Shown here piece after piece: positions 3,811-44,340 of a DNA stretch of 64,000 nt. This DNA comes from Paracoccus aeridis (lineage in GTDB: Bacteria; Pseudomonadota; Alphaproteobacteria; Rhodobacterales; Rhodobacteraceae): NCBI RefSeq assembly GCF_004923205.2, contig NZ_SELD02000008.1, positions 1-64,000 on the forward strand, given 5' to 3'. Position 1 is the first letter of the stretch. Every line of letters begins with the position of its first letter. Below the pieces are notes generated by a model. It did no database searches. It had not been told where the DNA came from and saw nothing but the letters and a program-made list of their open reading frames with translations. Made by a program: the position numbers and the translations under genes.

Positions 3811-5285
3811 TGCGCCTTCAACCTCATGTCGCGATGGATTCCTCCGAGACCCTGTTCTCGTGGCTGGGCCGGCTCGCCGCCATCCACGCCGGTCTCGACC
3901 TGGTTCCGTTCCTCAACGATCTGCAGATCAAGTCGCGGGAAATCGAGATCGGCGCCGACGGCACGCACGCCCGCCTCGCCGACCTGACCGGCGTGTCGAC
4001 CGCGCAGATGGCGCGGCAGCATTACTTCAGTGTCGACAGTCGCCGGCTGCGGTTCCGGGCCGAGACCTTCGCGTCGGAATTTGCTCCCAAGGTTCACCGG
4101 ATGGTTTGCCCTCTCTGCCTCGAGGAGGACGGAGGGTCGGACCCGGTTCGCGGACCGCGCGGCTGGCGGTGCCGCCTTCTCTGGACGGTGCGCTATTGCG
4201 CCGCCTGCCCCAAACATGGCGTGGGCCTGGTCTCGCCGGTGAACAAGGAGATGGGCTACGTGCCCGCCCATGACACGGCGCGCGCGATCGGTGCCCGGCT
4301 TCCGGAGCTGATCGCCAAAACCGCTCCGCGCCCCGTCACGTCCCTTCAGCTCTGGGTGGCCCGTCGTATGATGGAGCAGCGCGGCGACGGCTGGCTGGAC
4401 GGTCAGGACATCGACCAGGCAGCGAAAGCGACCGAGATGCTGGGCGTGGTGCTGGCGCACGGACCGATGCCGAACATGAACCTGATGTCGGCGCAGGACT
4501 GGGACCAAGCTTGGGAGGCGGGGTTCGAGGTGACGTCCCGCGGGGCCGAGGCGATCATGGGGGCACTGGAAGGCCTCACCATCCGGGGACGGGCATCCAC
4601 ACTTTCCTTCAAGGGTCCGCAAGCGAACCTCGGTCGGCTTTACCAGTGGCTGGCCTTCAACGAGGCGTCGGGCTGGCGAGCAGGCCCGATCCGGGATCTC
4701 GTCCGGGAGCACATCATCGACAATTACAACGTCGGCGCAGGTGACGTTGTGCTGGGTGAGGCTGTTCTGCGCCGCCGCACCCACACTGCGATCAGCCTCC
4801 ATCGAGCTACAGGGATTAACTCCCGAACCGCTGCGAACCTGATGGAGGACGTCGGACGTCCTGGCGGGGTGATGGACGCCGCAGATGCGGAGAAGCTGGC
4901 TGCCGATTACGAGGCCAGCATTCCGCTGTTCCACGTTCCGAAATATCTCAACTGCAGCCGCGTTCATGCCCAGCTGTTGGCTGAGGCGAGGATCATCAGA
5001 CCAATGGGCAAACCCGGGAAGTGCCGGCTTCATTCCCGTTACCTTCCCACGGAATTGGATTCGTTCCTCGATCAACTGATTGCGCGAACCGTAGACATAG
5101 AGATCACTGGTGACTTCGCGGATTTTGCCAAATGCGCCATGAAGGTCTGGGTGCCCAGCCCACGGATCGTTCAGGCTGTGCTGGATGGCACGCTTTCCAA
5201 GGTCGCCCTTGCGCCGGGAGTGCCAGGTTACTTGGGCATTCGGGTGTCAGTTTCGGAGGTCAAGGAAAAACTTCGTTCCGATTGA
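3807..5285 (+). CDS. tniQ: TniQ/TnsD-family target-selection protein
   Basis: The N-terminus (about 1-140) carries the TniQ signature: ETLFSWLGRLA at residues 14-24 and a zinc-binding set, CPLC (101-104) with CAAC (131-134) and H137. TniQ/TnsD proteins choose the insertion site and recruit the AAA+ regulator. The 492-residue length is near Tn7 TnsD (508 aa), which binds a specific chromosomal site through its C-terminal half, and longer than the roughly 400-residue TniQ of Tn5053 or of CRISPR-associated transposons. A site-specific TnsD-like role is therefore plausible but unproven. It is the last gene of the module and a terminator follows 30 bases later. Confidence 0.85.
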   Translation: MMRLQPHVAMDSSETLFSWLGRLAAIHAGLDLVPFLNDLQIKSREIEIGADGTHARLADLTGVSTAQMARQHYFSVDSRRLRFRAETFASEFAPKVHRMVCPLCLEEDGGSDPVRGPRGWRCRLLWTVRYCAACPKHGVGLVSPVNKEMGYVPAHDTARAIGARLPELIAKTAPRPVTSLQLWVARRMMEQRGDGWLDGQDIDQAAKATEMLGVVLAHGPMPNMNLMSAQDWDQAWEAGFEVTSRGAEAIMGALEGLTIRGRASTLSFKGPQANLGRLYQWLAFNEASGWRAGPIRDLVREHIIDNYNVGAGDVVLGEAVLRRRTHTAISLHRATGINSRTAANLMEDVGRPGGVMDAADAEKLAADYEASIPLFHVPKYLNCSRVHAQLLAEARIIRPMGKPGKCRLHSRYLPTELDSFLDQLIARTVDIEITGDFADFAKCAMKVWVPSPRIVQAVLDGTLSKVALAPGVPGYLGIRVSVSEVKEKLRSD

Positions 5286-5315
5286 CCTCCGGTGTGAATC
5301 GGCAGGATAGTGAGA

Positions 5316-40911: not shown

Positions 40912-41489
40912 TCGGCCGGATCATCGACCTGATTGGCGTCAGCGTACGCGACCCCGGCGCCGCCATTGCCGCGCTGAAGGGCCTGGGGGTGGGCCGGCGC
41001 GAAAGCTGGCTCACGATCTTCCTTGCCGCATCGGTCGGCGCGATCATGTCGTGCCTCCTGATGCGGACGCTGCCCGGGGCCGAGGCGGGGATGGATCGCC
41101 TCGCCTCGCAGCCGATGGGCATGGCGCTGCTGCAGGTCGGGGCAGCTGCGCTTTTCGCCGCGCTCGTCGACCGCGTGGGCCGCCTGTTCGGCGGCACCGG
41201 CCGCTTCGACGACGCGCTGCTGGTCACCGCGTGGATCGAAGTCGCGATGCTCGTCGTGCAGATCCCGCAGATCCTGATCAGCATCGCCCTTCCCGCGATC
41301 GGCGGCATCCTCAGCCTGCTGTCCTTCGCGCTTTATTTCGTCCTTGCCGTGCAACTGATCCGTGCCGTCCACGGCTTCCGCAATCCGCTGCTGGTGGCGC
41401 TCGGCATCGTCGGCACGGTGTTCGTGGCCGGCTTCGCGCTGAGCCTGCTGGCCGCGTCGCTCGGCATCATGCCGGAGGTGTTCGCATGA
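40908..41489 (+). CDS. YIP1 family membrane protein (second copy)
   Basis: 193 residues with about five hydrophobic segments and the N-terminal pattern IIDLIGVSVRDPGAAIAALKGL common in YIP1-domain proteins. It is related in layout to the preceding gene and may pair with it in the membrane. Overlap of four bases on both sides (ATGA), the downstream partner being sufS. Function unknown. Confidence 0.75.
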   Translation: MIGRIIDLIGVSVRDPGAAIAALKGLGVGRRESWLTIFLAASVGAIMSCLLMRTLPGAEAGMDRLASQPMGMALLQVGAAALFAALVDRVGRLFGGTGRFDDALLVTAWIEVAMLVVQIPQILISIALPAIGGILSLLSFALYFVLAVQLIRAVHGFRNPLLVALGIVGTVFVAGFALSLLAASLGIMPEVFA

Positions 41490-42697
41490 ACTTCGACGCA
41501 AGCCGCGTCCGCGCCGATTTCCCGATCCTGTCGCGGCAGGTGAACGGGCGGCCGCTGGTCTATCTGGACAGCGGCGCCAGCGCGCAGAAGCCGCAGGTCG
41601 TCATCGACGCGATCAGCGCCGCCTATGCCGGCGAATACGCCAATGTCCACCGCGGGCTGCACTTCCTGTCGAACCTCGCGACCGACAACTACGAACGCGT
41701 GCGCGCCACCATCGCCCGGTTCCTGAACGCGCCGCATGAGGACGAGGTGATCTTCACCACCGGCACGACCGAGGCGATCAACCTGGTCAGCTATGCCTGG
41801 GCCGCGCCGCGGCTGCAGGCGGGCGACGAGATCGTGCTGAGCGTGCTGGAACACCACGCCAACATCGTCCCCTGGCACTTCCTGCGCGAACGGCAGGGGG
41901 TGGTCCTGAAATGGGTCGAGCCCGAGCCGGACGGCAGCCTGCCACCCGAAAAGGTGCTGGCCGCGATCGGGCCGCGCACCCGGCTGGTCGCCGTCACCCA
42001 CATGTCGAACGTGACCGGCACCATCGTCGATGTCGCCGCGATCGCGCGCGGGACTGACGTGCCGGTCCTGGTCGACGGCAGCCAGGCGGCGGTCCACATG
42101 CCGGTGGACGTGGCCGGGATCGGCTGCGACTTCTACGCGATCACCGGGCACAAGCTCTATGGCCCGTCCGGGTCCGGCGCGATCTGGATCTCGCGCGAGC
42201 GGCAGGCCGAGATGCGCCCCTTCCTCGGCGGCGGCGACATGATCCGCGACGTCACCCGCGACGCCGTCACCTACGCCGACCCGCCCCTGAAGTTCGAGGC
42301 GGGCACCCCTGGCATCGTCAACCAGATCGGCCTCGGCGTCGCGCTGGACTACCTGATGAGCCTGGGGATGGAGAACATCGCCGCCTACGAGGCGACCTTG
42401 CGCGACTACACCCGCGGCCGCCTGCGCGAGCTGGACTGGATCGACGTCCAGGGGGACGCGCCGCACAAGGGCGCGATCTTCTCGCTGACGATGGAGGGCG
42501 CGCATGCGCACGACATCTCGACCGTGCTCGACAAGCGCGGCATCGCGGTGCGCGCGGGCACGCACTGCGCGATGCCGCTGATGCAGCATTACGGCCTGTC
42601 CGCGACGGCGCGGGCGAGCTTTGCGATGTACAACACCACCCGCGACGCCGACGCGCTCATCGACGGGCTGGTGTTCTGCCGCGAGCTGTTCGGGTAA
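41486..42697 (+). CDS. sufS: Cysteine desulfurase SufS
   Basis: 403 residues, group II desulfurase. Visible blocks are YLDSGASAQKPQVVIDAIS, FTTGTTEAINLV, the PLP lysine in TGHKLYGPSGSGA, and the catalytic cysteine in RAGTHCAMPLM. It supplies sulfur to SufBCD, usually via SufE or SufU, neither of which is in the window. It is the last gene of the run; a hairpin follows at 42724. Confidence 0.97.
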   Translation: MNFDASRVRADFPILSRQVNGRPLVYLDSGASAQKPQVVIDAISAAYAGEYANVHRGLHFLSNLATDNYERVRATIARFLNAPHEDEVIFTTGTTEAINLVSYAWAAPRLQAGDEIVLSVLEHHANIVPWHFLRERQGVVLKWVEPEPDGSLPPEKVLAAIGPRTRLVAVTHMSNVTGTIVDVAAIARGTDVPVLVDGSQAAVHMPVDVAGIGCDFYAITGHKLYGPSGSGAIWISRERQAEMRPFLGGGDMIRDVTRDAVTYADPPLKFEAGTPGIVNQIGLGVALDYLMSLGMENIAAYEATLRDYTRGRLRELDWIDVQGDAPHKGAIFSLTMEGAHAHDISTVLDKRGIAVRAGTHCAMPLMQHYGLSATARASFAMYNTTRDADALIDGLVFCRELFG

Positions 42698-42723
42698 GGC
42701 GCCGCGATCCGGGGCGCTGCCCG

Positions 42724-42745
42724 TGGATGGGCCGACGCCCATCCA
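42724..42745. terminator. Hairpin between sufS and the tRNA-Leu gene
   Basis: Nine-base perfect stem TGGATGGGC/GCCCATCCA around a CGAC loop (42733-42736). It lies between two convergent transcripts, sufS (plus) and tRNA-Leu (minus), and could stop both. A T run is absent on either side. Confidence 0.5.
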
Positions 42746-42792
42746 TCCGGATATTCATCGACAGAAGATGCCGGTTGTTGCGGAAATGCGCG

Positions 42793-43110
42793 TCCTCACG
42801 CCCGGCTTCGAACCGGGAAGCCCGAAGGCGGCGGATTTTCGTCCCACTTCGGCTTCCGCCGCCGCCGCTGTCCGCGGCGTTCGTGGGCTGGACTATCCCT
42901 TCAGCAGGGCCGCCCCGAAAGGCTGCCGGAAGCTGCGGCCCGTCTAGTCTCTACACCTTCCCCGACCCGCAGGCCGTGCCGGGGCTTGGCTCGGGATTGC
43001 CACCGGCGCGACCCGTGAGGTTTCCCCGAATTTGAGCCGTTCTACGCCGCGCGTTTCCGCGCGGGCACTCCGTTGAAGTCCGCTGCGTTTACCAGTTTCG
43101 CCACGTGAGG
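42793..43110 (-). tRNA. tRNA-Leu(UAA), interrupted by a group I intron
   Basis: 5' exon 43110-43076, 3' exon 42839-42793. The acceptor stem is 7 bp (CCTCACG/CGTGAGG) and the D-stem GCG/CGC. The anticodon stem GCGGA/TCCGC closes the seven-base loop CTTAAAA, giving anticodon UAA. A long variable arm with a GCC/GGC stem is typical of leucine tRNA. The T arm is CCCGG-TTCGAAG-CCGGG and the discriminator A73. CCA is not encoded. The spliced tRNA is 82 nt before CCA addition. The intron interrupts the anticodon after U34. Confidence 0.92.
42840..43075 (-). ncRNA. Group I self-splicing intron (subgroup IC3-like) in tRNA-Leu(UAA)
   Basis: 236 nt inserted between anticodon positions 34 and 35, where cyanobacterial tRNA-Leu(UAA) introns sit. 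The 5' exon ends in U and the intron ends in G (42840). P1 pairs exon ACUU with intron GAGU, giving the U-G pair at the 5' splice site. P4 is UCGGG (43029-43025) with CCCGA (42995-42991). P7 is GACUA (42949-42945) with UAGUC (42895-42891). The catalytic-core blocks GGCAAUCC-GAGCCAAGCC and GAAGGUG-AGAGACUAGACGGG resemble the Anabaena tRNA-Leu intron. It is too short for a homing endonuclease gene. Confidence 0.93.
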
Positions 43111-43212
43111 CGACGCGGGATCCCTTGTGCCGGAACCCGGGCGCGCGGGCAAGGTGCTGGCGGCCCTTCGCGAGTCTGGCGGGTCGTTTGCGCGCGGGAT
43201 AGATTGCCGGCC

Positions 43213-44340
43213 ATGAACACGCGACTGCGATCCGCCGCCCCGTTCTGGATGTCGCTGGGGCTGGTGCCCCTGGCCATCCTGGCCGCCATGCGCGGCGGCT
43301 GGTGGTTTGTGCTGATGCCGGTCTACGCGTGGTACCTGGTGACGGCGCTCGACGCGCTTCTGGGCCTGAACGGCGACAACCCGGACCCCGAAACGCCGAC
43401 GGCGCAGCTGTTCTGGCACCGCGCGATCACGGTGATCTGGTTCCCGGTGCAGGCGGCGGTGATCTTTGGCGCGATCTGGTATGTGGCGCACACCGGCCAT
43501 CTCGGCGGATGGGAAAAGATCGGGCTGTTCTTCGGAATCGGGGTCATGTCAGGCACGATCGGGATGGTCTACGCCCACGAGCTGCTGCACCAGAAGCCGG
43601 GGCACGAACGCTGGCTGGGCGACCTCCTGCTGGCCTCGACGCTGTATTCGCATTTCCGGACCGAGCATCTGCTGGTGCACCACTCCTGGGTCGCGACGCC
43701 CGCCGATGCGGTGTCGGCGCGCTACAACGAGGGGTTCTTCCGCTACTTCCTGCGCGTCCTCTGGACCTGCCCGCGATCGGCGTGGCGGGCAGAGACGCGG
43801 CTTCTCGCCCGCGCCGGGCGCAAGGTGCACGACCGGCGCAACCCCTTCTGGCGCTACGCCGCGCTGCAGCTGGGGATGCTGGCGCTCGCGGGAGCCCTGG
43901 GCGGGTGGCAGGGTGTCCTGCTGTTCGCCTGGCAGGCCTTCGTCGCGATCTGGCAGCTCGAACTCACGAACTACGTCGAACATTACGGGCTCACGCGCCG
44001 GCATCTCGGCGCGGGGCGGTACGAGCATGTCCTGCCGCGGCACAGCTGGAACGCCAGCCACACCGCGTCGAACTGGCTGCTCATCAATCTCCAGCGCCAT
44101 TCGGACCACCACTACAAGCCCGACCGGCGCTTCCCGCTTCTTCAGACCTACGAGGCGGACGAGGCGCCGCAACTGCCCTTCGGCTATCCGGCGATGACCT
44201 TCGTCGCGATGGTGCCGCCCTGGTGGCGGCGGCGGATGAACCCGCGCGTGCGCGCCTGGCGGCGGCAGTTCTATCCCGACATCGAGGACTGGCGCCCCTA
44301 CACCACCGGCGCCAACCCCCGGCCGCGCGGGGCCTTGTAG
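43213..44340 (+). CDS. alkB: AlkB-type alkane 1-monooxygenase (fatty-acid-desaturase superfamily)
   Basis: 375 residues with several membrane segments in the first 140. The histidine clusters expected for a non-heme diiron membrane hydroxylase are present: HELLHQ, HLLVHHSW, NYVEHYG and LQRHSDHHYKP. AlkB hydroxylates the terminal carbon of alkanes with rubredoxin as electron donor; no rubredoxin gene is adjacent. The ATG before NTRLRSAAPFW is chosen from the frame that stays open upstream. It is divergent from tRNA-Leu. Confidence 0.9.
   Translation: MNTRLRSAAPFWMSLGLVPLAILAAMRGGWWFVLMPVYAWYLVTALDALLGLNGDNPDPETPTAQLFWHRAITVIWFPVQAAVIFGAIWYVAHTGHLGGWEKIGLFFGIGVMSGTIGMVYAHELLHQKPGHERWLGDLLLASTLYSHFRTEHLLVHHSWVATPADAVSARYNEGFFRYFLRVLWTCPRSAWRAETRLLARAGRKVHDRRNPFWRYAALQLGMLALAGALGGWQGVLLFAWQAFVAIWQLELTNYVEHYGLTRRHLGAGRYEHVLPRHSWNASHTASNWLLINLQRHSDHHYKPDRRFPLLQTYEADEAPQLPFGYPAMTFVAMVPPWWRRRMNPRVRAWRRQFYPDIEDWRPYTTGANPRPRGAL

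Follow-up and report, generated by a model that had tools for sequence, protein, structure and literature searches.

An interrupted tRNA-Leu(UAA) gene beside sufS

The window analyzed here is a 64,000-nt stretch of the genome of Paracoccus aeridis (contig NZ_SELD02000008.1, positions 1 to 64,000). On its minus strand, at 43110-42793, the sequence reads as a complete tRNA-Leu(UAA) gene split by an intron. The 5' exon (43076-43110, 35 nt) ends in U34, its first 7 nt being complementary to the 3' acceptor strand. It is followed by a group I intron of 236 nt (42840-43075), the last base of which is the conserved G, and by a 3' exon (42793-42839, 47 nt) that begins at A35 and comprises the variable arm, the T arm, the acceptor strand and A73; CCA is not encoded. 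Both neighbors lie on the plus strand and are identified by resemblance, with inferred starts: a sufS-like cysteine desulfurase at the end of a suf cluster (41486-42697) and, on the other side, an alkane-monooxygenase-like membrane protein (43213-44340). We consider it highly probable that this is a tRNA-Leu(UAA) gene of a divergent type, whose group I intron after U34 would remove itself by two-step splicing, with the CCA end added later.

Bacterial tRNA group I introns can escape annotation, and plain ARAGORN reported no tRNA in the window. The authors of tRNAscan-SE 2.0 remark that the program was not designed for detecting group I introns (PMC8450103). The intron mode of ARAGORN returned one tRNA in the window, with a 236-nt intron and a boundary off by one base, and read it as Phe. 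Because of such shifted boundaries its anticodons are wrong at many loci (Phe, Stop, Ser and Gln), and a candidate splice search was used instead. In this search, flanks near covariance-model or pattern hits were joined, within set ranges, at pairs of a T before the insert and a G at its end, and the products were scored with ARAGORN. Among these T...G candidates the best for the window is tRNA-Leu(taa) with a score of 118.8, the runner-up scoring 114.3; the intron-final G is likewise the one giving the best tRNA found within that restricted set. According to ARAGORN the spliced product forms a cloverleaf with a UAA anticodon; it has a 7-bp acceptor stem, A73 and, as read from the sequence, a long variable arm. 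The original prediction of a 236-nt insert after U34, flanked by exon halves that make up a complete leucine tRNA, is thereby reproduced with the same boundaries.

Failure of a covariance model to score the insert as group I had been named as a counter-indication. RF00028, scanned over 42700-43200, aligns along its full length (model positions 1-253 of 253) with 33.1 bits and an E-value of 9.2e-7 (1.5e-6 in a search of the whole genome). The model thus scores the insert, but below the gathering score of 50, which was not reached in the window scan; that cut-off is a database threshold rather than a property of ribozymes, and is passed by one of 101 genomes of the genus. The intron is a putative member of group IC3, judging by its resemblance to Azoarcus-type and Agrobacterium-type tRNA introns.

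Structure and covariation of the intron

The minimum-energy fold of the single intron is no more stable than those of shuffled sequences (z of -1.0; 13 of 100 shuffles equally good), and the case for a structure therefore rests on comparison. RNAalifold, applied to 10 introns, recovered the outer helices but placed two hairpins where P7 belongs, and its model was not adopted as it stood. The structure that we tested has 58 pairs, namely 53 of the 70 alifold pairs plus 5 P7 pairs added by hand; the pairs dropped were 8 from the two hairpins replacing P7 and 9 others. It was examined in an alignment of the window intron with 60 related tRNA-Leu introns, drawn from 66 non-redundant introns by leaving out L114, L136, L226, L244, L275 and L288.

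Over these 61 introns, 95.7% of 3405 cells are paired, as against 83.2% in column shuffles, and both-side changes occur at 37 pairs as against 24.6, although column shuffles lose the relatedness of the sequences. Controls with slid partners are only 29.5-44.4% paired, a comparison biased toward a structure drawn from the same sequences. Helices P3, P4, P6, P7 and P8 are each 97.1-100% paired, with both-side changes in every one.

At the 5' end of the intron, P1 (43068-43078) joins C-U-U of the 5' exon (43078-43076) to the guide G-A-G (43070-43068); the U.G pair at the splice site, between the exon-final U and a guide G, is present in all 61 aligned introns. The P2 hairpin (43044-43066) has 94.1% of its cells paired and both-side changes at 6 of 8 pairs. 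P3 (42936-43039; 43039-43034 with 42941-42936) is 100% paired, with both-side changes at 4 of 6 pairs. Within 42991-43029 lie P4 (43029-43024 with 42996-42991; 99.7% of cells paired) and P5 (43020-43019 with 43001-43000; 100%). P6 (42960-42984; 42984-42981 with 42963-42960) is 97.1% paired and changes on both sides at all 4 pairs. The pseudoknotted P7, the G-binding helix (42891-42949), pairs GACUA (42949-42945) with UAGUC (42895-42891) in 99.3% of cells, and its last pair occurs as A-U, G-C, C-G and U-A across the introns. P8 (42902-42935; 42935-42932 with 42905-42902) is 100% paired, with both-side changes at 3 of 4 pairs; the inner stem within this arm is poorly conserved across the introns (43.9%). 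P9, with two hairpins, spans 42843-42887.

The window type departs from its relatives in P10, the pairing of the bases before the guide with A35-A37 of the 3' exon. Among 133 tRNA-Leu rows, which are not independent and for which no chance level was computed, three P10 pairs are possible in 16, two in 100, one in 11 and none in 6. The six without P10 are five window-type rows (four species, with P. marinus present twice) and L062. P10 is a usual but not a defining feature of group I introns, and the window type, with none of the three possible pairs, seems to carry out the second splicing step without it.

The features above suggest the following route. In the precursor, the guide sequence of the intron would pair with the last exon bases (P1), and GTP held in P7 would attack behind U34. 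The freed 3' end of U34 would then attack behind the last G of the intron, joining U34 to A35-A36 and so creating the UAA anticodon. Since the gene encodes no CCA, a CCA-adding enzyme would be required to complete the tRNA.

Copy number, decoding and use of the gene

The P. aeridis genome (3.32 Mb in 70 contigs, 99.97% complete) matches the interrupted gene once. RF00005 identifies 39 tRNAs in it, with the leucine anticodons CAA, UAG, CAG and GAG. An intact second tRNA-Leu(UAA), suggested earlier as a counter-indication, was sought, and no other UAA tRNA is among those found. Also absent from the 39 are tRNA-Tyr, tRNA-Ile(GAU) and tRNA-Ala(UGC), perhaps because of assembly gaps. As the missing tRNA-Tyr is a needed one, the assembly or the search must lose some genes, and a gap in the assembly could hide an intact tRNA-Leu(UAA). 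The codon UUA, which tRNA-Leu(UAA) alone should read, is used 2 times among 18463 codons in 55 script-chosen ORFs of this genome, so that demand for the tRNA is low.

The window type of gene is present in four species: that of the window, P. marinus (L166) and two others (G028 and G061). In P. marinus the exons are the same as in the window, the intron is about 94% identical and the flanks are similar. Among the four species, 80-82 of the 82 exon positions agree; the introns agree at 93-95% of their aligned positions, with 2-30 positions falling in gaps, and identity immediately beyond the gene is only 44-83%. That exons are kept while flanks diverge points to selection on the exons, which is sensible only if the intron is removed. 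Boundaries, core structure and conservation can be read in the sequences themselves; from them we infer that very probably the intron is removed, possibly with help from proteins, and the product serves as a tRNA.

The alternative that the gene is a decaying relic, left unspliced, with decoding done by an intact tRNA-Leu(UAA) that escaped detection, seems very improbable to us. It would accommodate the missing CCA and P10, an RF00028 score near the bottom of the range for the genus (a lower best score is seen in just two other matched genomes, 32.2 and 30.3), and an assembly of 70 contigs in which tRNA-Tyr is missing. A relic, however, would hardly keep its exons to within 0-2 differences in 82 bases over four species while flanking identity falls far lower. 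Nor was an intact copy found, with the patterns used, in any of the 20 genomes of the genus that have an intron match, although neither form was found in 50 of the 101 genomes searched.

Distribution of related introns

DNA similarity identified matches in 12 of 61 related genomes, of which 7, among 37 of the window's genus, were at tRNA-Leu; RF00028 finds the same 7 among those 37. Extended to 101 genomes of the genus, RF00028 detects a group I intron match in at least 20, and three pattern searches for an intact tRNA-Leu(UAA) gave 28, 31 and 31 of the same 101. The half of these genomes with neither form most likely reflects the strictness of the patterns. One of the genus genomes (G118) has two group I matches, one in tRNA-Leu(UAA) and the other apparently in tRNA-Thr(UGU) (L179, L194).

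In wider samples, RF00028 matches at least 31 of 385 genomes drawn from the class, 12 of 39 genomes of the cyanobacterial phylum and at least 33 of 185 from the class to which Paraburkholderia tropica belongs; counts over more than 40 genomes are lower bounds, and the match of P. tropica itself was lost under the stricter filters. A pattern for the P1-P3 region of tRNA-Leu introns occurs in at least 119 stretches of named records, 75 of which passed the core filter. At least 70 tRNA-Leu(UAA) introns were resolved in named records, with hosts ranging from Alphaproteobacteria to Acidobacteriota. These include Rhodovulum, Bradyrhizobium, Sphingomonas, Zymomonas, Xanthobacter, Paraburkholderia and Tahibacter as well as Acidobacteriota MAGs and one Saprospiraceae MAG.

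Bacterial tRNA group I introns are thus widespread but patchy. The original prediction was right to place one after U34 of tRNA-Leu(UAA) in an alphaproteobacterium; its list of known bacterial hosts was too short, lacking dozens of alphaproteobacterial records together with Paraburkholderia, Tahibacter and Acidobacteriota. Given how widespread the introns are, finding one in this genome is not surprising in itself.

Other tRNAs with introns were encountered in the same searches (rows L050/L251, L235, L237, L246, L249, L252, L256, L260 and L195). They are Lys(UUU), Lys(CUU), Thr(GGU) and Thr(UGU), with inserts after U34, U35 or U36, and an Asn(GUU) with a group I intron that was identified by ARAGORN intron mode alone.

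Descent of the intron

For phylogenetic analysis we set aside 38 of 198 hits, for which the candidate search yielded no tRNA, and substituted L051 for row L282. With nine further rows obtained by ARAGORN intron mode and three loci from plasmid, phage and viral records, the set came to 171 rows. The full tree was built from the 162 distinct introns among these (202 columns), and a trimmed tree from 149 introns after removal of 13 rows.

The window intron groups with those of Paracoccaceae, in a supported set of five made up of the four window-type species and Rhodobaculum claviforme; no other intron from beyond the four comes as near as that of Rhodobaculum. Introns of proteobacterial tRNA-Leu are interspersed with Lys, Arg and Thr(GGU) introns and with cyanobacterial fMet introns, and many of the branches are weak. 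A single clade of the tRNA-Leu introns of the genus is rejected (p-AU 2.3e-5), which indicates more than one gain. The nine cyanobacterial tRNA-Leu introns form their own clade in the trimmed tree (100/95); in the full tree a long-branched row classed as alphaproteobacterial, L226, falls inside the cyanobacterial tRNA-Leu group. The genome concerned, G226, has a cyanobacterial-type tRNA-Leu intron, which may reflect contamination or transfer.

The shared insertion site had raised the question of common descent with, or transfer from, the cyanobacterial tRNA-Leu intron. Transfer from cyanobacterial trnL is not supported by the best trees, and the window lies outside the cyanobacterial clade in both. 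Constraining cyanobacterial Leu introns and the window type to group together gave a p-AU of 0.074 in the full and 0.38 in the trimmed tree, neither of which firmly rejects such a grouping. The deep order of the trees is weak: the cyanobacterial branch stands apart, and a single ancient origin is not rejected.

Under that last reading, every tRNA-Leu(UAA) intron after U34, whether from cyanobacteria or from proteobacteria, would go back to one ancient insertion. The identical insertion position fits it, as does the failure to reject a single clade, whether of all tRNA-Leu introns (p-AU 0.19 in the full and 0.056 in the trimmed tree) or of all non-cyanobacterial ones (0.23). We nevertheless think it unlikely. 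In the best trees, Arg(CCU) and other introns branch between the cyanobacterial and proteobacterial groups. The separate cyanobacterial clade of the trimmed tree, the mingling of proteobacterial introns with those of Lys, Arg, Thr and fMet, and the patchy presence even inside the genus also speak against it.

Relatives on phages and plasmids

Plasmid pCTX-M3 (L358, 56827-67079, at about 5000-5300) carries a tRNA-Leu(UAA) with an intron beside aac(3)-IId and IS26, and a second plasmid record (L359, at about 4000-4255) has its match in the same aac(3)-IId/IS26 setting by annotation. The pCTX-M3 gene, an uninterrupted-looking tRNA-Leu(UAA) of alphaproteobacterial type with a group I intron, may mark the source of this neighborhood. 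In all, 1282 of 72,556 plasmid records have a match to the intron query, of which these two were examined; some others, such as that of Mycetohabitans, represent a different match. A plasmid of Paracoccus liaowanqingii (L427:1915-2079) has a tRNA-Met and an uninterrupted tRNA-Leu(UAA) adjoining a VapBC toxin-antitoxin pair, and a further VapC gene lies some 1.2 kb from there. Cleavage of tRNAs is common among VapC toxins, and the plasmid tRNAs might be spares.

Among viruses, Gordonia phage Daredevil (L360:2978-3289) has an unannotated tRNA-Lys(UUU) with a 238-nt group I intron near an integrase gene. Of 33 pattern hits in viral contigs 5 pass the core filter, and three of these are almost identical in the portion displayed; two others (L298 and L319) have a tRNA-like look and do not pass it. 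One viral contig (IMGVR_UViG_3300010368_000011, L311:2788-3733) carries a tRNA-Leu(UAA) with an 861-nt intron, which encodes a 195-residue protein resembling LAGLIDADG_2 homing endonucleases (E 2.3e-26).

Origin of the tRNA gene

The exons of the window gene resemble neither the tRNA-Leu(UAA) of the genus nor the other leucine tRNAs of their own genome. They are 0.64-0.71 identical to intact tRNA-Leu(UAA) genes of the genus, 0.73 to an intron-bearing one and 0.61-0.72 to the other tRNA-Leu of the same genome. That the gene is a mutated copy of one of the latter was considered; the nearest of them, Leu(CAA), reaches just 0.716. Nearer to the window exons are a tRNA-Leu(CAA) of Caulobacter phage phiCbK (0.797), an intron-bearing tRNA-Leu of Paraburkholderia (0.78) and a tRNA-Leu(UAA) of a Paracoccus plasmid (0.762). 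Two other tRNA-Leu of phiCbK (0.617 and 0.659) are less near, as are those of the viral contig (0.73), a Cupriavidus plasmid (0.73) and Rhodobaculum (0.683). By a looser measure, identity reaches 0.76-0.80 for intron-bearing tRNA-Leu of other bacteria, chromosomal or unplaced, and about 0.74 for those of the genus. A search with the spliced exons, confined to phages and plasmids, gave matches in 141 phage and 18 plasmid records. The idea that the window exons might be of a phage or plasmid type is weakened.

The missing CCA also sets the gene apart within its genome, although an encoded CCA is a usual rather than a defining feature of tRNA genes. CCA ends 42 of 43 ARAGORN calls at 40 tRNA loci of the genome, three genes in overlapping loci being counted twice, and the exception is a '???' call. 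Among 130 tRNA-Leu rows, CCA is present in 109, read as absent in 18 and unplaced in 3. The 18 include four of window type, 8 cyanobacterial rows and L114, and at least three (L136, L242 and L269) are misreadings by the script; since other tRNA-Leu rows lack it too, absence of CCA is not unique to the window type.

The location is likewise unusual. In the best 30 of the 45 genomes with a sufS match, the 1500 bases that follow the gene (771 in one genome) hold a tRNA-Leu in 3, all of window type; in the others the locus has tRNA-Arg(CCG) (11) or no tRNA (16). Divergent exons, the missing CCA and this sufS locus together suggest acquisition of the whole gene. A divergent type of tRNA gene, seen so far in four Paracoccus species, would on balance have entered the clade whole, intron included.

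Alternatively, reverse splicing or an endonuclease may have brought the intron alone into a tRNA-Leu(UAA) gene that was already resident, the odd exons then reflecting divergence. We regard this as rather unlikely, although introns of the family occur after U34 in several types of tRNA-Leu gene and in a tRNA-Lys(UUU), and the LAGLIDADG_2 gene of the viral contig sits within just such a tRNA-Leu(UAA) intron. Furthermore, the low exon identity of Rhodobaculum, which has the nearest intron outside the four species, implies that the two introns need not have traveled with one tRNA gene. Against homing into a resident gene stand the low identity of the window exons to both the intact and the intron-bearing tRNA-Leu(UAA) of the genus, the lack of CCA in a genome where the other 39 tRNAs found have it, and a locus without tRNA-Leu in other genomes of the genus. 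Homing and carriage of a whole tRNA gene are both possible, and the latter fits the window somewhat better.

We put forward, tentatively and as less likely than not, a fuller form of whole-gene acquisition: the ancestor of a small Paracoccus clade may have taken up a foreign tRNA-Leu(UAA) bearing its own intron, and the newcomer may have displaced the native gene. If so, a tRNA needed for decoding would be the product of an acquired gene that splices itself without P10 and receives its CCA after transcription. Intron-bearing tRNA genes would then be spread between distant bacteria by phages and plasmids, in some of which the intron harbors a LAGLIDADG gene.

Comparison with known tRNA introns

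The intron adds a member to a kind already known; what deserves further attention is the unusual tRNA gene that holds it. Related introns lie in several tRNAs and on phages and plasmids, and with this wide distribution homing of the intron alone can now be tested against its riding in mobile tRNA genes. The window offers a good case for such a test: its tRNA gene differs from those of related genomes, and no other UUA decoder was detected in the genome.

Nearest by host are the alphaproteobacterial tRNA-Arg(CCU) introns of Agrobacterium and Bartonella bacilliformis, which share the host class and a position in the anticodon loop; Paquin reportedly treated tRNA-Arg(CCU) introns in 1999. One of them (L051) aligns with the window through the core. 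These introns are inserted after U36 and have another guide sequence, whereas that of the window follows U34 of tRNA-Leu. The B. bacilliformis tRNA-Arg(CCU) group I intron is named BbgpI (PMC7717549). The tRNA-Ile(CAU) introns of Azoarcus and other beta- and gammaproteobacteria have the same core architecture as the window, and crystal structures of the Azoarcus pre-tRNA-Ile intron are named in another paper (PMC3984707). Introns of CAU tRNAs, however, lie after U36 in 11 of 12 rows, those 11 on another branch of the tree, and before C34 in the twelfth.

Further counterparts are other tRNA-Leu(UAA) introns. Vepritskiy is said to have described one in 2002 from a deep-subsurface gammaproteobacterium; it resembles the window in being in the same tRNA of a proteobacterium. 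Plastid tRNA-Leu(UAA) introns share both tRNA and position after U34. The cyanobacterial introns also have the 3' exon AAAAUC and the U.G pair at the splice site in common with the window. They differ from it in occupying a separate branch of the tree, in keeping at least one P10 pair where the window type has none, and in the P7 region, where 5 of 9 cyanobacterial rows have the word GGTGCAGAGACTCGACGG and 22 of 25 rows of the window's genus have GGTGTAGAGACTAGACGG.
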